IMG/VR virus record: IMGVR_UViG_3300044960_000182
Location: 1-27,044 of that record
Origin: a virus
DNA: 27,044 nucleotides
Direction: 5' to 3' (one strand)
Shown: positions 4,728-20,192 of the stretch, in pieces
How positions within the stretch are numbered: position 1 is the stretch's first letter
How the letters are laid out: each line of letters begins with the position of its first letter
Notes under the pieces: model-generated
Seen by the model: only the letters and a program-made list of their open reading frames with translations
Database searches by the model: none
What the model was told of the DNA's origin: nothing
Program-made: the position numbers and the translations under genes

Positions 4728-6410
4728 GTGCCCGTCTACATCCCATTGAAGGCAGGCTCCAAGACGCCAGCAGTCACAGGCTGGAGCAGGCCCGACTACG
4801 AAGGCGTAGAGCCCACGGGGCGGGTGGCCCTTCGTGCCGACGGGCTCGTCATCATCGACTGCGACAGCGACGAGGCTGCGGCCCGCTGGCGCCAGATCGG
4901 CAGCCCAACGCTCGAGGTCAAGACGCCACGCGGCTGGCACTTCTACTACACCTGGACCCCTGGCTCGCCGACCGGTCCAGCGGTCGACGTCTTCGGCTCC
5001 AAGAGCGGGATCGACGTGCGCGCCGGTATCGGCTCTTACGTCGTCGCTCCCCCCACTGAGGGCTACAAGACAGTCAAGAAGCGCAAGCCTGCCCCATTCA
5101 CCCCGGCCTGGCTGCCGAAGCAGCACGACAGCGACGCTGGAAGCGACCTCGAGACGTGGACATCCATCCCTGTCGGGAGGCGTGACGACACGCTGACGGC
5201 GCTCGCCGGTTCGCTCCGCCGGCAGGGGATGGCGCCAGAGCTGATCTACCAGACGCTGCTCGCCTGGAACGAGACCATCGTCGAGCAGCCGGCTGGGGAC
5301 GAGATGACCGCGAGGGACATCGAGCGCATCGTCCGCAGTGTCGTGCGCTACGCCCCACAGCCCGACTGGTCTATCGAGATCGAGGGCGAGGAGCAGCCGC
5401 TCTCAGAGCTTGCGCTTGCCGACATCCTCGACTTGATGTCCAACATGACACTGCCGCCACCGGCCGAGTGGTACTGGCGCCCGTACCTCCCGAAGGGGCG
5501 CCTCGTGCTCCTCGACGGGGCGGAGGGCATCGGCAAAGGTCTGTTCTGCTCGTACATCGTCACACTCCTGGCGAAGGACGGAACGCCGGCGCTCTGGGCC
5601 AGCACGGAGGACGACCCAGAGGAGGACATCCAGAAGCGGCTCCTCGCCGCCGGCTACGTTCGTGGCAAGTACGCCGAGGTCGGCTTCTTCAAGGTTGACC
5701 CGAAGTTCCCCAACGACATCGCAGTGCTGGAGAAGATCATCAACGACTTCGGCGCAGGCATCGTTGTGCTCGACCCCGGCCGGTCCTTCCTGGCCCCGCC
5801 CGAGGGCGTGAAGTCCAGCTTCAACGACGAGGCGGCTATTCGGCCGGGACTCGAGTCGCTGAACCGCCTGGCCAAGCGCACTGGCTGCACCATTGTCTTC
5901 GTTCACCACTGGAACAAGAACACGCAGACTACGGTGCAGTACCGCTCCGCCGGCTCCGGTGCGTTTGCGCAGGTCGTGCGCCACCGCATCACACTCGTCT
6001 GGCACGGCCCCACCGACGGCGGCTCCGGCGTCTTCGAGGTCTCGAAGTCGAACATCGGGCCACGGGGGCACGTCCACAGCTACGAGCTAGACCCGGTTGC
6101 GCACTACGACACCGCGCGGTTCGTGCTGGGGGAGGAGCTTCCCGAGTACCCCGACGCCGGCGCCTGGATGAAGGCGATGGAGAAAGAGGACGCTGGGCTC
6201 GAGCTCGACATGCAGGACGAGATCACCGACCACATCCGCGCGCTCCCTGGCGGGGCTCCTGTGCCGGCCGTAAGCGAGCTACAAGAGACCTGGGGCATCA
6301 AGCGCCGCCAGGCCCAGGACCTCGTCGCCAGCTGGCTGCGCGACGGTGTTGTACGCCGAGGCGCCCAGAAGCGGCTCTATCGGGTCGGGGAGCACGAACG
6401 TGCTGATTAG
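4728..6410 (+). CDS. bifunctional primase-polymerase with RepA-like helicase domain
   Basis: A 560-residue replication protein. N-terminal Prim-Pol (AEP-type) domain, residues 1-125: metal site D44-C-D46, then H70 in the TPRGWHFYY stretch, and D95 in GIDVRAGIGSYVVAPP. A primase C-terminal helical segment follows (about 155-210, DDTLTALAGSLRRQG onward). A RecA-like helicase domain spans about 250-450 with P-loop GAEGIGKG near 264-271, Walker B-like IVVLDPGRS, and HHWNKN. The P-loop has Gly where Ser or Thr normally follows Lys. The C-terminus (about 505-555) looks like a winged helix. It would synthesise primers and unwind the fork for the PolA encoded next. GTG 4728 has CAGGAG 5 nt upstream; the end overlaps the polymerase start by 11 nt. 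Confidence 0.87.
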   Translation: MPVYIPLKAGSKTPAVTGWSRPDYEGVEPTGRVALRADGLVIIDCDSDEAAARWRQIGSPTLEVKTPRGWHFYYTWTPGSPTGPAVDVFGSKSGIDVRAGIGSYVVAPPTEGYKTVKKRKPAPFTPAWLPKQHDSDAGSDLETWTSIPVGRRDDTLTALAGSLRRQGMAPELIYQTLLAWNETIVEQPAGDEMTARDIERIVRSVVRYAPQPDWSIEIEGEEQPLSELALADILDLMSNMTLPPPAEWYWRPYLPKGRLVLLDGAEGIGKGLFCSYIVTLLAKDGTPALWASTEDDPEEDIQKRLLAAGYVRGKYAEVGFFKVDPKFPNDIAVLEKIINDFGAGIVVLDPGRSFLAPPEGVKSSFNDEAAIRPGLESLNRLAKRTGCTIVFVHHWNKNTQTTVQYRSAGSGAFAQVVRHRITLVWHGPTDGGSGVFEVSKSNIGPRGHVHSYELDPVAHYDTARFVLGEELPEYPDAGAWMKAMEKEDAGLELDMQDEITDHIRALPGGAPVPAVSELQETWGIKRRQAQDLVASWLRDGVVRRGAQKRLYRVGEHERAD

Positions 6411-11351: not shown

Positions 11352-11714
11352 ATGAGGACCATCACCGGGACGGAGACCGTCCGCAACGAAGCGGTCTTCG
11401 CGAGCGAGGGTGCGGTCGTGTACGCCAAACGGGGTTCGGCCGTGGTCGCGAAGCACAGTTCGACTGTCCACGCACTGCGCCGGTCGCTCGTGTTCGCGTA
11501 CGACGGCTCGCTCGTGTTCGCTCGCTCCGGTTCGACCGTGTTCGCTCGCTCCGGTTCGACCGTGTACGCACGTGCTAGCTCGACCGTGTACGCGTACCGA
11601 GACTCGACGGTCCACGCCTACCGGGGCTCGACGGTGTATGCGGCGCGCGGCACCATCGTGCGCGCCGAGCAAGGCGCTACGGTGCATGTTGACGGGGAAG
11701 CGGTGGCACGGTGA
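11352..11714 (+). CDS. octapeptide-repeat protein, predicted beta-solenoid
   Basis: A 120-residue protein made almost wholly of 8-residue repeats of the form STVxAxxG, such as GSTVFARS, GSTVYARA and GSTVYAAR. Alternate Val and aromatic/Ala positions would point inward in a beta-solenoid or beta-roll. Two repeats are identical at DNA level (24 nt each, 11514-11537 and 11538-11561), so the array can expand or contract. A paralogue with the same repeat lies on the minus strand at 15402-15959. ATG 11352 is preferred over an upstream in-frame start because of GGAGA just before it. Basic overall. Function is unknown. Confidence 0.7.
   Translation: MRTITGTETVRNEAVFASEGAVVYAKRGSAVVAKHSSTVHALRRSLVFAYDGSLVFARSGSTVFARSGSTVYARASSTVYAYRDSTVHAYRGSTVYAARGTIVRAEQGATVHVDGEAVAR
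11514..11561 (+). repeat. perfect tandem 24-nt repeat in octapeptide gene
   Basis: Two identical 24-nt units (11514-11537 and 11538-11561) encode consecutive octapeptides. They show recent unit duplication within the repeat protein. Confidence 0.85.
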
Positions 11715-12917: not shown

Positions 12918-13520
12918 TCATGCCAGGCTCACCGTTGCACCCGACACCTTGGGCGGCTCGCCGGCTGCGTGCTGGGCGATGATGTGCTTGTGGATGCTGC
13001 AGTCGATCGCCTCCTGCACGACGGAACGCGCCCTCGCCGCCGCCTTCCTGCCGCCGACGCTGTGCTTGGTGAGGCGCACCTCGACCAGCAGGCGCACGAT
13101 CTCAAGCACCTCGGCGTCGTAGTGGTCGTCGTCGGGGGCGTAGAACCGTGCGTCTGGGCGCTCGAGCGCCAGGCTCACCGTTGCACCCGACACCTTGGGC
13201 GGCTCGCCGGCTGCGTGCTGGACGACGACGTGTTCGTGGATGCGGCGGTCGATCACCGCCTGCACGGCGGTGCGCACGACGGACGCCGCCTTCCTGCCGC
13301 CGACGCTGTGCTTGGTGAGGCGCACCTCGACCAGCAGGCGCACGACCTCAGGCGCCTCGGCGTCGTACTCGGCGTCGTCGCCCTCGGGCGCCGGCTCGGG
13401 GGCGTAGAACCGTGCGTCTGGGTGCGAGAACCGCCTGGTCTTGCTCGGGTCCGGGACTGCTGCGCCAGCTCCAGCTAACCGAAGCTCTTCGCGCAGTTGT
13501 GGGGTCCTAGGTGCCAACAT
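12918..13520 (-). CDS. hypothetical protein with internally duplicated domain
   Basis: A 200-residue protein consisting of a short basic N-terminal region and two copies of one domain of about 80 residues. Both copies run from PDARFYAP through VRLLVEVRLTKHSVGGRKAA to HAAGEPPKVSGATVSLA. The first copy has a few extra acidic/Pro residues. The DNA is also nearly repeated (period 246 bp). The conserved VRLLVEVRLTKHS strand plus basic GGRKAA could bind a ligand or nucleic acid, but no family is recognised. ATG 13520 with AAGGGAG upstream is chosen; the longer frame begins in an intergenic hairpin. Confidence 0.65.
   Translation of the reverse strand: MLAPRTPQLREELRLAGAGAAVPDPSKTRRFSHPDARFYAPEPAPEGDDAEYDAEAPEVVRLLVEVRLTKHSVGGRKAASVVRTAVQAVIDRRIHEHVVVQHAAGEPPKVSGATVSLALERPDARFYAPDDDHYDAEVLEIVRLLVEVRLTKHSVGGRKAAARARSVVQEAIDCSIHKHIIAQHAAGEPPKVSGATVSLA
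12922..13431. repeat. tandem in-frame duplication
   Basis: Two tandem copies with offset 246 bp (82 codons). Copy one starts at 12922 and copy two at 13168 with GCCAGGCTCACCGTTGCACC. They are nearly identical over the first about 60 nt; copy two has an 18-nt insertion in its acidic region. They encode the duplicated domain of the gene at 12918-13520. Confidence 0.8.
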
Positions 13521-13583
13521 TGATGCTCCCTTCCTGGGGGTAGGCGGCAGGCTCATCAGGGTCGGGGCGCCGCTCCCGACCGA

Positions 13584-13612
13584 CCGGCGCCGGGGCGCCG
13601 GTTTCGCCGGCG
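13584..13612. terminator. two overlapping, mutually exclusive hairpins
   Basis: CCGGCGCC (13584-13591) can pair with GGCGCCGG (13594-13601), while the same 13596-13601 can instead pair with CCGGCG (13607-13612) across a TTTCG loop. On the minus strand the second hairpin directly follows the stop of the 27-residue gene. The 15-mer GCCGGTTTCGCCGGC here is repeated exactly at 14564-14578. Confidence 0.5.
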
Positions 13613-15401: not shown

Positions 15402-15959
15402 TCATGCGCCCTGTTCGTCACGCTTGAGCCCGCCCCATCCGTGCATGACCCGCGCCCCGGGGAACGCCTCGACGCACGCGTCATCGGTCAGCACCCGCAC
15501 TTTGGAGCCGGCGAGGGCGAACACGCGAGCGCTCCCGTGGACGTAGACCACGGACCCGCGGGCGGCCACCACATGCGCGCGGCCGAGCGCGTCCACGACC
15601 GAGCCGGCACGTGCGTAGACGATGGACCCGTCATACGCATTCACCCACCCGCTACGTGCGTCGACGTGAGCGCCGTGGTGGGCGTCGACCATCACGTCAT
15701 CGCTGCCGCCCTCGATGATGACCCGAGCGCCCTCCGCCCTGACGTACGCGTCACGGGCGGCCGTCACTGTCGATCCAGGCCGTGCGTCCACCGTCGTACC
15801 GGAGTAGGCGACCACCTGCGCCCCACGGTACGCGGTGACGTGCGCGCCACGGTACGCGGTGACGTGCGCGCCGTCGTAGGCGGTCACGTTCGCCCGGTGG
15901 CCGATCGCCTCGACAGTCTCGCCAGCGGCGATGCCGTCGCCGGTGACCTTACGTGCCAT
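15402..15959 (-). CDS. octapeptide-repeat protein, predicted beta-solenoid (paralogue)
   Basis: A 185-residue protein built of the same 8-residue repeat as 11352-11714, here as AHVTAYRG, AQVVAYSG, TTVDARPG, STVTAARD and so on, with Val and Ala at fixed alternate positions. A middle segment (RVIIEGGSDDVMVDAHHG) breaks the register once. The C-terminus leaves the repeat and ends charged (GLKRDEQGA). Two adjacent units (near 15831-15878) are identical over most of 24 nt. AAGGGAG precedes ATG 15959. A stiff solenoid is likely; function unknown. Confidence 0.7.
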   Translation of the reverse strand: MARKVTGDGIAAGETVEAIGHRANVTAYDGAHVTAYRGAHVTAYRGAQVVAYSGTTVDARPGSTVTAARDAYVRAEGARVIIEGGSDDVMVDAHHGAHVDARSGWVNAYDGSIVYARAGSVVDALGRAHVVAARGSVVYVHGSARVFALAGSKVRVLTDDACVEAFPGARVMHGWGGLKRDEQGA

Positions 15960-16357: not shown

Positions 16358-16427
16358 CGTGCCTCCTTGCTACCTCGTGCTGGTGCGTACCTGTTCGTGC
16401 AAGTGCTATCGGCGCCTGCCGTCCGGG

Positions 16428-16455
16428 ACCTTAGCGCTCCCCCGCCAGAAGTCCA
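16428..16455 (-). promoter_or_regulatory. candidate promoter for minus-strand cluster
   Basis: Read on the minus strand: -35 TGGACT (16455-16450), 16-nt spacer, -10 TAAGGT (16433-16428). It would start near 16421, about 60 nt before the ATG at 16357, and sits next to the CRP-type palindrome. Confidence 0.45.
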
Positions 16456-16459
16456 GTAA

Positions 16460-16475
16460 TGTGACGGACGTCACA
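16460..16475. promoter_or_regulatory. CRP/FNR-type palindrome
   Basis: TGTGACGGACGTCACA has 7-bp arms around a 2-nt centre and equals the TGTGA-N6-TCACA consensus of CRP-family regulators, including mycobacterial Crp. Its centre is about 46 bp upstream of the predicted minus-strand start. A second site with the same 6-bp arms is at 18634-18649. Confidence 0.6.
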
Positions 16476-16554
16476 GTCTGAGCGGACAGTGCGTCTACTT
16501 GGATCGGCTCAGCCGCCTGGCTCACGGAGCACGTCCAGGGGCGGGCAAGTGAGC

Positions 16555-16560
16555 CATGCT
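16555..16560 (+). promoter_or_regulatory. -10-like element for a leaderless start
   Basis: CATGCT followed by 7 nt (GGAGGGC) and ATG 16568. The gap contains GGAGG, but it would be too close to serve that ATG well. The spacing matches the other leaderless-type starts in the window. Confidence 0.35.
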
Positions 16561-16567
16561 GGAGGGC

Positions 16568-17101
16568 ATGGGACGAGCTTGCCAGGTCTGCCGGCACCCA
16601 CGCCTGACCGACATCCACGAGGCCCTGCTCTCTGGCGTGCCACGCCGTGAGGTGGCTAGGCGGTTCGGGTTGGAGCGCAGTGCCGTCGACCGGCACTTCA
16701 AAATGCACATTCCGGACGCCGTCCGGGCCGCAGCCCAGCAGGCGGGCCCGGTCCGTATGAGTGTCATCGACGGCGGCGTGCTGCTCGGGCAGGCGGCCGA
16801 GGTCTACGAGCGCGCCGTCGACCTGTTCGATCGCCTGGAGGAGCAGCTAAGCACGGGGGCCGTGGACACTCGCTCGGTGGTCGCCGCACTCAGGGAGCAG
16901 CGGCAGGCCCTGGAGACGTTGGCCAAGCTCAACTACGTAGTGGCCGACCGGCCGCAGGCCCCGGAGAAGGTGGAGGCGCCGGCTATCGACGCAGCGATCG
17001 TGGCAGCACTCGAGGCCCGACGTATTGCCGTGGATCGAGTGGAGGAATCTGCGCCATCTCCCGCACCTCCACGCGCACTGCCGCCACCTGACACACCCTA
17101 A
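16568..17101 (+). CDS. HTH protein, candidate terminase small subunit
   Basis: A 177-residue protein beginning MGRACQVCRHPRL (C5, C8), then a helix-turn-helix REVARRFGLERSAVDRHFKMH (about residues 29-48, quoted in part), a helical middle (AAEVYERAVDLFDRLEEQ) and a Pro-rich tail. This arrangement, a Cys pair, an HTH with an RHxxxH ending, then helices, is common in phage small terminase-like DNA-binding proteins. The large terminase is 8 kb away, so this is not certain; a transcription regulator is the alternative. ATG 16568 is preferred to 16556 because it keeps the Cys pair next to the N-terminus and follows a -10-like hexamer by 7 nt. It is the only plus-strand gene in the minus cluster and is followed by the phased repeats. 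Confidence 0.6.
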   Translation: MGRACQVCRHPRLTDIHEALLSGVPRREVARRFGLERSAVDRHFKMHIPDAVRAAAQQAGPVRMSVIDGGVLLGQAAEVYERAVDLFDRLEEQLSTGAVDTRSVVAALREQRQALETLAKLNYVVADRPQAPEKVEAPAIDAAIVAALEARRIAVDRVEESAPSPAPPRALPPPDTP

Positions 17102-17102
17102 C

Positions 17103-17187
17103 ACAACTTTGTCATAACCTGCCACAACTTGTCATAACCCTGTCGTGCAACAACTTTGTCATAACCTGCCACAACTTTGTCATAACC
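17103..17187. repeat. four phased 17-bp direct repeats (iteron-like)
   Basis: ACAACTTTGTCATAACC occurs at 17103, 17150 and 17171, and with one T missing at 17124. Start-to-start distances are 21, 26 and 21 bp, so paired copies lie on the same helix face. The AT-rich array is in the gap between convergent 3' ends (17101 plus and 17201 minus), where no promoter is expected. It could be a replication origin, packaging or partition site bound by a sequence-specific protein. Confidence 0.8.
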
Positions 17188-17200
17188 GTCGCGGCGGTCG

Positions 17201-17446
17201 TCAGATGCCGACGAAGTACTTCGAGAGAGCGACCGGGCCGTCGAAGTAGTTCGCGTGCGTCAGCTTGACGGTTTCGATTGAGTCCGAACCGACGAGCACG
17301 ATCTCGAGGCCCGCGGCGTTCGCGTACTCACGCTCCTTCGCCGAGTACGCGGCCACTGCGTCCTCAGCATCCCGGAACTCTTCCAAGTGGACGAGCTTGC
17401 CCTGCGTGTGATCGAAGACGAGGAGGTAGTGAACGAGGTTGCTCAT
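17201..17446 (-). CDS. small conserved-looking phage protein
   Basis: An 81-residue protein (MSNLVHYLLVFDHTQGKLVH...). Strand-helix-strand pattern with LVFDHTQGKLVHLEEFRD, then a helix AAYSAKEREY, then LEIVLVGSDSIETV. It resembles short actinophage proteins of unknown function with an LLxFDRxxG opening. GAGGAG precedes ATG 17446; the longer frame is rejected for lack of a ribosome binding site. Confidence 0.65.
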   Translation of the reverse strand: MSNLVHYLLVFDHTQGKLVHLEEFRDAEDAVAAYSAKEREYANAAGLEIVLVGSDSIETVKLTHANYFDGPVALSKYFVGI

Positions 17447-17593
17447 GCGGGGGCTCCTCGCAGGAATGGTACCCGGGCTCGGCACTGCCGGTGCCGGCGG
17501 CGCACTGGCGGCGCGGTCGGCCCCCAGCGCACGAGGTCGACCCTAGGGCGGTCGAGTAACACGATGGCGGGCGAGTGCCCGGCACACACGAAA

Positions 17594-17616
17594 GCGCCCG
17601 GGGAAACCCCGGGCGC
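17594..17616. terminator. 10-bp hairpin, bidirectional
   Basis: GCGCCCGGGG (17594-17603), AAA loop, CCCCGGGCGC (17607-17616). A perfect stem between the minus genes 17641-17913 and 17201-17446, consistent with separate transcription units. Confidence 0.6.
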
Positions 17617-17640
17617 CATCCTCACCGATCGCCGCAGCGG

Positions 17641-17913
17641 TCAGCAGTCGAGCACGAGAGCCTGCGCCATGAGCCAATCCTCAGTGTCGGCGAACACCTG
17701 GCCGCAGTCCGTGCACCGGCACTGAGTGCCCGTCAGGCCTTCGGCCTCAGGCCAGTAGGGGCGACCGTCCGCACCCAGCCCGACCGTGTGGCTGTGGGTG
17801 CATACGCCCTGCGCCTCCAGGCGGGCGATGCGCTCCCCCATGGCCTCCAGCTCGCGCATCTCGTAGTCGGCATCCTGGTATCCGACGGGCATCTCGTCGT
17901 CGTAGTGGAACAT
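17641..17913 (-). CDS. zinc-ribbon protein
   Basis: A 90-residue protein. The N-terminus is acidic and helical (MFHYDDEMPVGYQDADYE, then MRELEAMGERIARLEA), followed by a zinc ribbon: C then HSH near residues 38-42 and RCTDCGQVF near 70-78. Its gene has a strong AAGGGGAGG site before ATG 17913 and its own promoter-like sequence at 17946-17974. Function is unknown. Confidence 0.6.
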   Translation of the reverse strand: MFHYDDEMPVGYQDADYEMRELEAMGERIARLEAQGVCTHSHTVGLGADGRPYWPEAEGLTGTQCRCTDCGQVFADTEDWLMAQALVLDC

Positions 17914-17945
17914 CGTCCCTCCCCTTAGGTGTAGGTACTACTGGC

Positions 17946-17974
17946 AGTGTCATCATCGGCACGAGGGCTGTCAA
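17946..17974 (-). promoter_or_regulatory. promoter for 17641-17913
   Basis: Read on the minus strand: consensus -35 TTGACA (17974-17969), 17-nt spacer, weak -10 GACACT (17951-17946). It gives a leader of about 25 nt with the AAGGGGAGG site. Confidence 0.45.
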
Positions 17975-18057
17975 GCATTAGCACAAGAAACCTACCCCCC
18001 GGAGCGCGGTCATGCGTTCAGCGAAGGCGGTCGCCTCGCGTCGCAGCCGCCGGGCTG

Positions 18058-18258
18058 TCACCGCACGGCCGGTCCGACCCGGAGCCACAAGTCGCGAAGC
18101 CGGTCACTCTCAAGCTCGTCTGATCGTCCGCGCCGGATGAACTCATCGACCGTAAGCCCTTCCTGCGCGACCGCCTCGCTTAGCTCGGCGACGAGATCGC
18201 TGTGGGCCACGTCGACGACGTGAACCCCCGATCGGCGATGACGGGTACGTGTCGGCAT
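18058..18258 (-). CDS. small hypothetical protein
   Basis: A 66-residue protein with a basic N-terminus (MPTRTRHRRSGVHVV) and a helical C-terminal half (LVAELSEAVAQEGLTVDEFIRRG). The second half has a ribbon-helix-helix or antitoxin-like appearance but is too short to assign. AGGAG lies about 11 nt upstream of ATG 18258, somewhat far. A TACGAT hexamer about 30 nt upstream may be its -10. Confidence 0.5.
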   Translation of the reverse strand: MPTRTRHRRSGVHVVDVAHSDLVAELSEAVAQEGLTVDEFIRRGRSDELESDRLRDLWLRVGPAVR

Positions 18259-18327
18259 GCTGGGCGGCTCCTGGTACGCGGGTCGCGATCATCGTAGTGT
18301 GTGGCCGCGAGAGGCCGCAGCAGGAAA

Positions 18328-18347
18328 CGCACCGGCGGGCCGGTGCG
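18328..18347. terminator. hairpin after 18368-18553
   Basis: CGCACCGG (18328-18335) pairs with CCGGTGCG (18340-18347), 8 bp with a 4-nt loop, just downstream (minus sense) of the gene ending at 18368. Confidence 0.5.
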
Positions 18348-18367
18348 CTCCCCTCCACCTCCTCTCG

Positions 18368-18553
18368 TCACTGAAGATCGCCGCGGCTGGCGTCGACTAC
18401 CCGCCGCTCGTACTCGCTCACCAATTCGTCGACGGTCTGCGGCGAGCAGAGAAACTGTACGGTGAGGCGCCGTGCGGCCTCGACCACACCGAAGTGGCGC
18501 ACCAGGGCGACGAAGGTCTCGAAGTCCTTGGCGAAGCGCTCCTGCTTCTGCAT
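18368..18553 (-). CDS. small helical hypothetical protein
   Basis: A 61-residue protein, mainly helical: MQKQERFAKDFETFVALVRHF then GVVEAARRLTVQFLCSP then TVDELVSEYERRVV. The middle could be a short helix-turn-helix (VVEAARRLTVQFLCSPQTV), so a small DNA-binding regulator is possible. AGAGGAG precedes ATG 18553. It is the first minus gene downstream of the palindrome set at 18598-18649. Confidence 0.55.
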   Translation of the reverse strand: MQKQERFAKDFETFVALVRHFGVVEAARRLTVQFLCSPQTVDELVSEYERRVVDASRGDLQ

Positions 18554-18597
18554 GGTTGGTCTCCTCTGATCGGCTCGATGTCTGCGCCAGTCATCGT

Positions 18598-18608
18598 CCC
18601 TGTCAGGG
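18598..18608. promoter_or_regulatory. short palindrome
   Basis: CCCTGTCAGGG, 5-bp arms around one T. It is the one nearest the gene of three palindromes upstream of 18368-18553; possibly an operator. Confidence 0.3.
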
Positions 18609-18612
18609 GGCG

Positions 18613-18618
18613 ACTCAA
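18613..18618 (-). promoter_or_regulatory. possible -35
   Basis: On the minus strand TTGAGT, with a weak GATGAC 17 nt downstream (18595-18590). The predicted start would place the CRP-type site about 58-60 bp upstream. Confidence 0.25.
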
Positions 18619-18619
18619 G

Positions 18620-18635
18620 CAGTTTCTCGAAACTG
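18620..18635. promoter_or_regulatory. palindrome CAGTTTC-TC-GAAACTG
   Basis: Seven-bp perfect arms (18620-18626 and 18629-18635) with a 2-nt centre. It overlaps the CRP-type palindrome by 2 bp, so the two proteins, if any, could compete or cooperate. Confidence 0.5.
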
Positions 18636-18649
18636 TGACCGATGTCACA
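18634..18649. promoter_or_regulatory. second CRP/FNR-type palindrome
   Basis: TGTGACCGATGTCACA, matching TGTGA-N6-TCACA with 6-bp arms like those at 16460-16475. It lies about 80 bp upstream of the minus-strand ATG at 18553. Confidence 0.6.
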
Positions 18650-18700
18650 CGTTCGCCGGACGGATCGTCCGACGTTTCGGCCGAGACGCGCCGTCGATCG

Positions 18701-18740
18701 CCCCTCCCCCTCCCCCGGGGGCCGGGGGGATTAGGGGAGG
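18701..18740. other. C-run/G-run tract
   Basis: Runs of 4, 5 and 5 C (18701-18716) followed by 5, 6, 4 and 2 G (18717-18740). It can fold as a hairpin or, on either strand, a G-quadruplex. Confidence 0.5.
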
Positions 18741-18839
18741 TACGCAGAAATCTGCGAGCAGTTCCGGGGAACCCTGGACATTTCGGACAAATATCCCTAC
18801 CGATTGCCGGTCGACTTCGGGGGGCGCCACTTCTAGCTA

Positions 18840-18868
18840 GCACAGCTACGTAGGGGTGGTAGCTGTGC
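18840..18868. repeat. 10-bp inverted repeat
   Basis: GCACAGCTAC (18840-18849) and GTAGCTGTGC (18859-18868), perfect arms with a 9-nt spacer (GTAGGGGTG). Either an operator or a hairpin; no gene borders it. Confidence 0.7.
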
Positions 18869-18972
18869 AGGCAGACCCAGCCTCATGGGTCGCAGGGCAC
18901 CGGCACCGCTGCCTCATAGGACAAAAGTGTTATACCGTCGCCTCTTGGGTCAATCTGGACATCATAGACACG

Positions 18973-19044
18973 TCAGTCGTATAGGTGCCGGTCCGTGGGT
19001 TGCAGGGTAGGTGTCAGTCATGTAGGTGCCGGTCCGTGGGTTGC
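18973..19044. repeat. two direct repeats, 41-bp period
   Basis: A 31-nt unit beginning TCAGTC and containing TAGGTGCCGGTCCGTGGGTT is found at 18973-19003 and 19014-19044. The two copies differ at three positions, near the start of the unit. Confidence 0.8.
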
Positions 19045-19083
19045 GGGATGGGATAAGCCTTGTCGGGTGGGGGTGGGGGAGTC

Positions 19084-19133
19084 TTATCTGCAATCTGCAT
19101 TGGTTACTTAGGCACTTTGCAGATTGCAGATAA
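19084..19133. repeat. 16-bp perfect inverted repeat made of heptamers
   Basis: TTATCTGCAATCTGCA (19084-19099) and TGCAGATTGCAGATAA (19118-19133), with an 18-nt spacer. Each arm is two tandem ATCTGCA heptamers, so the site carries four copies in symmetrical order. This resembles a site bound by a multimeric initiator or repressor. A related CGCAGA-AA-TCTGCG palindrome lies at 18743-18756. Confidence 0.8.
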
Positions 19134-19225
19134 CAAAAGCCCTGGTCAGAGGGGGTGTCGCGGGTCTTATCTACCGAGCTTGGTAAAAATCAGGAGTTGA
19201 CAGGAACAACATCAGCAACACGAGG

Positions 19226-19393
19226 TCAGCGGCAGAAGTCGCGCTCTCGAGGGCCGTCGTAGGGCTTGCACACGACGTTCGACAAGCGCTCCGCGATGTT
19301 CCGTGCGTGGGTGGCGCACGCCAGCCGGAGGATGGCCAGCTGCGGGGCGTCGCTGGACACCGCCGCCACCCGAAACGCCGCCGGCACCTTCAT
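19226..19393 (-). CDS. small hypothetical protein downstream of DUF1360-like gene
   Basis: A 55-residue protein starting MKVPAAFRVAAVSSDAPQLA and ending CKPYDGPRERDFCR, basic, with a central helix. ATG 19393 overlaps the upstream stop (ATGA), which is the main reason to accept it; the ribosome binding site is poor (GGGG directly before ATG). No family recognised. Longer frames in the same register start inside the upstream gene and are rejected. Confidence 0.45.
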   Translation of the reverse strand: MKVPAAFRVAAVSSDAPQLAILRLACATHARNIAERLSNVVCKPYDGPRERDFCR

Positions 19394-19707
19394 CCCCGCA
19401 CCCATGCCTGCGGCCGGAGCTCGAGCGTCAGGTGCCCCAGCGCCTTGTAGACGAGCCCGCCGGCTACCAGGCCCGGCACCCCCGCCCACGGGGACCCGAA
19501 GACGAGCGCCTGCACCAGCCCGATCCACGTACCCGTGCAGAGATGGCAGCCGACGAGGTAGGAGGCCTTCTCCCAAGCAGCCCGGTGCCGGGGGCGCCGC
19601 TCCCCGATCTGCGCGATGCCGTCACGCAGTGGCCGGAAGAACTCCGACTCCACCACGATGGTGGTTGCGATCCAGTTGACGAGCCCGAGCAGTACGACGG
19701 TTGCCAT
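19390..19707 (-). CDS. DUF1360-like membrane protein
   Basis: A 105-residue membrane protein. TM1 at residues 2-18 (ATVVLLGLVNWIATTIV), then a basic loop (GERRPRHRAAWEK), a SYLVGCHLCTGTWIG motif containing a CxxC pair, and TM2-3 around LVQALVFG and PGLVAGGLVYKAL. This Cys motif next to membrane helices is the hallmark of DUF1360, found in Bacillus and phages; the molecular role is unknown. The start ATG 19707 has no Shine-Dalgarno and lies 7 nt from TACGCT (leaderless type). It diverges from the HExxH gene at 19776. Confidence 0.75.
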   Translation of the reverse strand: MATVVLLGLVNWIATTIVVESEFFRPLRDGIAQIGERRPRHRAAWEKASYLVGCHLCTGTWIGLVQALVFGSPWAGVPGLVAGGLVYKALGHLTLELRPQAWVRG

Positions 19708-19714
19708 GAGGGCG

Positions 19715-19720
19715 AGCGTA
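19715..19720 (-). promoter_or_regulatory. -10-like element for a leaderless start
   Basis: On the minus strand TACGCT, 7 nt before ATG 19707. A divergent partner is at 19763-19768. Confidence 0.4.
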
Positions 19721-19762
19721 CGCCCGCTGGCGGCGGGCCAAGTGAGCCGTCGGTACCGCTGC

Positions 19763-19768
19763 CATCCT
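19763..19768 (+). promoter_or_regulatory. -10-like element for a leaderless start
   Basis: CATCCT preceded by TGC (extended -10), exactly 7 nt before ATG 19776, and no Shine-Dalgarno. Confidence 0.4.
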
Positions 19769-19775
19769 GGGACGC

Positions 19776-20192
19776 ATGACGCCTGCGCAGCGCACTCGAG
19801 CGAAGGAGCACATCGCCGAGCTCGCTGCTGAGCACCGCGTGAAGTTGCGCTGGAAGACCCGGCGGTGGGAGTCGCAAGCCCACGTCGAGACCAGGCAGGC
19901 GTGGGTGCCGAAGGCAATGCGCAGCCCGCTCGACTACTTCATCGCCCTGCACGAGCTCGGGCACGTCGTCTCCCCGCTGGCCGCGCTGCTGCACAACGGC
20001 TCTGGAGCGTCGTGGGAGTTCGAGTTCACGTCGGAGGCTGCCGCCTGGAGCTGGGCGTACGAGAGCGCCGACCCGGAGCTTCTACGGCTGATGACCCAGC
20101 GCGACTGGCTACAGGTCGCCGGAGCGCTCATGAGCTACATCGGCCCGCCGAAGAAGAGGCAGGGCAAGACGCGTAGACCGTCAGGGCGCTAG
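19776..20192 (+). CDS. HExxH metallopeptidase-like protein
   Basis: A 138-residue protein with FIALHELGHVVSP, giving the zinc site H59-E60-L-G-H63, and Glu/Asp in FEFTSEAAAWSWAYE that could be the third ligand. A helical, basic N-terminal region (TPAQRTRAKEHIAELAAE) precedes it. The size and HELGH helix resemble small gluzincin or ImmA-like phage proteases, but no known partner repressor is adjacent. Basic C-terminal tail (PPKKRQGKTRRPSGR). Apparently leaderless. Its substrate is unknown. Confidence 0.7.
   Translation: MTPAQRTRAKEHIAELAAEHRVKLRWKTRRWESQAHVETRQAWVPKAMRSPLDYFIALHELGHVVSPLAALLHNGSGASWEFEFTSEAAAWSWAYESADPELLRLMTQRDWLQVAGALMSYIGPPKKRQGKTRRPSGR

Follow-up and report, generated by a model that had tools for sequence, protein, structure and literature searches.

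The gene-free gap described here is, judging by its sequence, very probably a control region that comprises a promoter or operator and perhaps also a replication origin or a packaging site. With moderate confidence it is further read as acting in cis at the junction between the leftward early and the rightward late genes of a tailed phage. The assignment was made because the gap was free of genes, displayed non-random repeats and carried a C/G tract which relatives kept at the same place. The features considered are collected in Table 1, where positions refer to the window, the whole stretch of DNA analysed (27,044 nt, IMGVR_UViG_3300044960_000182, of record class linear).

Table 1. Features of the gap and of its surroundings in the window
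Feature	Position	Strand	Remarks
Second perfect CRP/GlxR-type palindrome, TGTGACGGACGTCACA	16460-16475		In divergent gap 16358-16555
Helix-turn-helix (HTH) gene	16556-17101	+	Conserved in the family; candidate regulator, initiator or terminase small subunit
Four copies of an 18-21-nt repeat, CACAACTTTGTCATAACC	17102-17187	+	Directly after the HTH gene
First leftward gene left of the gap, 61 aa	18368-18553	-	Without family match
Gene-free gap	18554-19225		GC 0.588 versus ~0.65 in surroundings
Palindrome CAGTTTC-TC-GAAACTG	18620-18635		Overlaps CRP-type site
Perfect CRP/GlxR-type palindrome, TGTGACCGATGTCACA	18634-18649		Candidate site, left part of gap
Palindrome CGGACG-GAT-CGTCCG	18657-18671
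C-tract CCCCTCCCCCTCCCCC, then G-tract GGGGGCCGGGGGGATTAGGGG	18701-18736	+	Hairpin-capable; strongest G4Hunter peak of window
Palindrome CGCAGA-AA-TCTGCG, CGCAGAAATCTGCG	18743-18756
10-bp inverted repeat, GCACAGCTAC-N9-GTAGCTGTGC	18840-18868		Arms 18840-18849 and 18859-18868
Two 40-nt direct repeats	18972-19052	+	Starts 18972 and 19013; period 41, 88 % identical
Second strongest G4Hunter peak of window, GGGTGGGGGTGGGGG	19060-19080	+
Perfect 16-bp inverted repeat (heptamer inverted repeat)	19084-19133		Arms 19084-19099 and 19118-19133, 18-nt centre
55-aa leftward ORF right of the gap	19226-19393	-	Start codon overlaps stop codon of next gene (ATGA, 19390-19393)
Leftward gene, phrog_781	19390-19707	-	Homologue on + strand in replication block of G006
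First gene of rightward late block	19776-20192	+

The gap and its genomic setting

The rightward replication block of the window encoded a helicase, a Cas4-like exonuclease, WhiB, Sak4, SSB, a primase-helicase, PolA and nucleotide genes. Small leftward genes, one of them an ArdA-like antirestriction gene, formed a block from 18553 down to ~12680, and the rightward late block, beginning at 19776, contained the endolysin (24212) and the terminase large subunit (25027). The gap thus had the leftward early block to its left and the rightward late block to its right. The sequence is that of a tailed phage whose host is probably an actinobacterium, as suggested by the WhiB gene and by the actinophage relatives of the terminase. 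No related DNA was found in isolated phages, and the only match in the host genomes searched was one remote terminase relative.

Two proteins made of short TVYA.RGS-type repeats were encoded on opposite strands of the early regions (11352-11714 and 15402-15959). Leftward gene 13520-12918 contained a 246-nt tandem duplication (12922-13380, 88 % matches). Just upstream of this gene and downstream of the ArdA-like gene was a type II hammerhead ribozyme on the minus strand (13551-13608; Rfam RF02276, 43.6 bits, E 5e-6); in Agrobacterium tumefaciens, hammerheads flank ardA (PMC3088659).

An earlier note had placed a noncoding stretch at 18650-19225. Its lack of genes was borne out, since ORFs inside the gap obtained negative codon-usage scores and both flanking genes positive ones, but its left border had to be moved to 18554. 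A start at 18650 left out two palindromes (18620-18649) and missed the CRP-type site by one base. The gap also contained the lowest-GC 60-mer of the window (0.38), which overlapped the heptamer inverted repeat. No Rfam family matched in the gap region, no intrinsic terminator (GC-rich hairpin plus U-tract) was found there, and no promoter of the sigma-70 type was recognised, other promoter types lying outside this search.

Repeats, palindromes and CRP-type sites

Each arm of the heptamer inverted repeat (TTATCTGCAATCTGCA and TGCAGATTGCAGATAA) consisted of TT followed by two tandem ATCTGCA heptamers. No other perfect inverted repeat of the window with arms at most 60 nt apart reached its length; the longest obtained in 30 Markov shuffles of the whole window measured 13 bp. 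Four of the five ATCTGCA heptamers present in the 27 kb belonged to the heptamer inverted repeat. Eight perfect palindromes (arms of at least 6, spacers of up to 9) were counted in the gap versus 1.5 in shuffles of the gap, an excess that was weaker against the rest of the same genome, where ~3 % of equal-sized windows reached this count. The repeats of the gap are therefore non-random and more than expected by chance. Every repeat listed in the earlier note was present (the 16-bp inverted repeat, the 41-bp-period repeat, the 10-bp inverted repeat, the CGCAGA palindrome and the C/G tract), and further weak repeats (AAGCC...GTCTTATCT) occurred at 19055 and 19137. Two other candidates were discarded: TTATCTGCA, compared by eye, deviates from the DnaA box TTATCCACA in two letters and was not counted, and CTCTGACCWGG (19139-19150), also encountered in the divergent gaps of relatives G002 and G004, did not by itself exceed chance.

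The proposal that the four symmetric heptamers form a site for a dimer of dimers agreed with their arrangement, but a protein binding them was not identified, and the heptamer repeat was absent from the relatives compared. The exact inverted repeat had no match in 2.9 million viral contigs. Neither it nor the 41-nt direct repeat was found in the family relatives, whose terminases (50-70 % identity) are too distant for judging neutral drift of an operator; closer relatives spanning the gap were not present in the collections searched.

In RNA folding windows across the region, the heptamer inverted repeat alone stood out (z -4.5 versus shuffles). As it follows the stop codon of leftward gene 19393-19226 at a distance of 93 nt, it could be an RNA hairpin ending the leftward transcript 19707-19226, the other repeats then being neutral intergenic debris. 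This explanation is quite improbable. Neither strand of the hairpin is followed by a U-tract and no terminator matched, which weakens it; moreover, the stem is AU-rich in a GC-rich genome and a terminator does not need tandem heptamers in each arm. Under the control-region reading, the four heptamers would instead constitute a cooperative operator for a DNA-binding protein of phage or host.

The consensus TGTGA-N6-TCACA is that of CRP sites and is used by mycobacterial CRP (PMC4218801). Two intergenic palindromes of the window matched it exactly, with 0.019 such matches expected per window under a Markov model. As the consensus was recognised post hoc, the first site is weak when taken alone and the second represents independent support. 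Both centres were 88.5 nt from a start codon, that of the leftward gene at 18553 and that of the rightward gene at 16556, respectively; these equal distances may be a coincidence. The likeness of these putative sites to actinobacterial CRP/GlxR sites consists of the two perfect matches; they differ in occurring in a phage, and none of nine records of relatives contained an exact match. Since the relatives yielded neither the CRP-type site nor the heptamer inverted repeat, both may be peculiar to this phage or have no function.

Relatives and the conserved C/G tract

Relatives were collected via the terminase, and the complete records G001-G004 and G006 were compared after being turned to terminase orientation; searches via the first late gene, PolA alone or the 61-aa gene yielded none. 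A common order was encountered in G002, G004 and G006: replication block, leftward early block, divergent gap, HTH gene, gap and late operon. The window was arranged alike, but leftward genes intervened between the HTH gene and the gap (17201-18553) and behind the gap (19226-19707). The late operon of the window may have its own promoter (19708-19775), given that two leftward genes separate it from the gap, which speaks against the control-region reading. Stretches of 360-456 nt that seemed noncoding, immediately ahead of the MP gene in relatives, were also considered, and were dropped because they proved to be a Pro/Gly-rich ORF.

The slot of the helicase was variable. It was fused to the primase inside the replication block in the window (4728-6410) and, again joined to the primase, stood first in the late operon of G001 (L003 351-2132). 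A separate DUF3987-type gene headed the late operon in G002, G004 and G006 (L016 973-2289), where it followed the gap behind the HTH gene.

A tract of the form C4-7TC5-7(TC5-6) was displayed on the late-operon strand, at the same place and in the same orientation, in the window and in G002, G004 and G006; these four are kin, so that the cases are not fully independent. The tracts started at 18701, 2070, 18188 and 525, respectively, and read CCCCTCCCCCTCCCCC in the window, CCCCCCTCCCCCTCCCCCC in G002, CCCCTCCCCCCCTCCCCCC in G004 and CCCCTCCCCC in G006, each with a G-rich arm behind it. Even the shorter pattern C4-7TC5-7 was expected only 0.05-0.3 times per genome. In the window, G002 and G004, the maximum of |G4Hunter| of the whole genome fell in the gap, and the gap of G006 contained the second peak, although the gap accounted for only 5-17 % of the noncoding sequence of these genomes. 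The gaps behind the HTH gene of G002 and G004 could be aligned only over a block of ~110 nt that surrounds the tract; a separate alignment was obtained for the divergent gaps upstream of this gene. The pattern has its limits, as partial relative L026 had no such tract and the gap of G006 was not AT-rich. The C/G tract is the conserved core of the gap, which the earlier note had not recognised, and makes the locus more credible than the repeats alone.

Compared with G002, to which it is almost identical, contig G003 had a garbled end just behind the tract (G003 39560-39626, L080), an indication that the tract is an obstacle to sequencing or assembly.

Origin, packaging site or control region

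The earlier note had called the stretch a noncoding control or origin region. As a class this was upheld, the gap being gene-free, situated between early and late blocks and kept with its tract in relatives; the evidence for an origin was circumstantial only. As an origin, the gap would have its repeats bound by the HTH protein or another initiator, its AT-rich part would melt and the replicative helicase would be loaded; alternatively, a leftward transcript stalled at the G-tract would prime the family A polymerase, as has been suggested for CSB II of mitochondrial DNA. This is possible, though unlikely. The phage does possess PolA and primase-helicase genes, and in relatives the gap directly separates the HTH gene from the DUF3987 helicase-like gene, an arrangement reminiscent of iteron-type phage origins (lambda O - ori - P), but the DUF3987 gene did not adjoin the gap in the window. 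Three of the four genomes (the window, G002 and G004) had their lowest-GC 60-mer in the gap, as would suit such an origin, but the gap of G006 was not AT-rich, and AT-rich spots and repeats are as much expected of promoters. Cumulative GC-skew displayed neither minimum nor maximum at the gap in the window or G006, a criterion that is not strict for phages, and the small skew maximum of G002 at 2063 was the C-tract itself.

Iteron-like repeats were encountered only in the window, beside the HTH gene and not in the gap. These four copies, where the second lowest-GC 60-mer of the window was also located, have the HTH gene on one side and a leftward gene on the other, each with its 3' end towards them, and constitute a possible binding array. 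Their adjacency to the HTH gene favours an origin; against it, the HTH protein displayed no family match to a known initiator.

Read on the minus strand, the tract is G5AG5AG4 in the window and G6AG7AG4 in G004, and resembles CSB II of mitochondrial DNA (G6AG7), an element that halts transcription and has a link to the priming of replication (PMC8780183). By analogy, an RNA:DNA G-quadruplex formed by the leftward transcript at the GnAGnAGn tract would stop transcription, the transcript end would prime the family A polymerase, and the AT-rich heptamer repeat would serve as melting and initiator site; such a phage origin appears highly improbable. Vertebrate mitochondrial DNA shares with the phage G runs split by a single A (identically G6AG7 in G004), location in a control region and a family A polymerase, a likeness which here is one of sequence analogy only.

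The gap could also be the start of packaging (pac or cos), where the HTH protein, as terminase small subunit, would recognise the repeats and the C/G tract would lie near the cut. The predicted fold of this protein combined an HTH with two long helices and its top viral structural match was a terminase small subunit (E 0.076), but the model was poor (pLDDT 64, pTM 0.36) and no structural match was significant. No other terminase small subunit was recognised beside the large one, which is 6-9 kb away from the gap. Contigs of several relatives ended near the gap (L003, L014 and L017); such ends may have arisen simply because the C/G tract was poorly sequenced, as in the garbled end of G003. Furthermore, the contig of G006 closed to a circle of ~49.35 kb (end overlap ~130 nt) through the HTH gene and the gap, so that no fixed break was seen there. 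Packaging from this site is accordingly considered improbable. Arthrobacter phage Anansi offered no cos model, as seemingly the same small genes were present at both ends of its genome.

The favoured reading remains that of a control region between early and late genes. The transcript that runs leftward into the gene at 18553 would start in the left part of the gap (~18560-18630) and could be tuned by a host regulator of the CRP/GlxR family at the CRP-type site, and the C/G tract may act as a structured element that pauses transcription. The gap resembles the divergent early/late control regions of temperate and lytic phages in being gene-free, in separating oppositely transcribed blocks and in its symmetric repeats of the kind bound by proteins; it differs from them in that neither a repressor gene nor a promoter was recognised and in that the conserved element is the C/G tract.

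The gap thus probably serves as regulatory hub in a family of uncultivated phages whose hosts are probably actinobacteria, and three precise elements were singled out in it: the CRP-type site, the putative heptamer operator and the C/G tract. If the tract primes replication, it would provide a phage parallel to mitochondrial CSB II; if a cAMP-responsive regulator of the host binds the CRP-type site, the early genes of the phage would be tied to the metabolism of its host.
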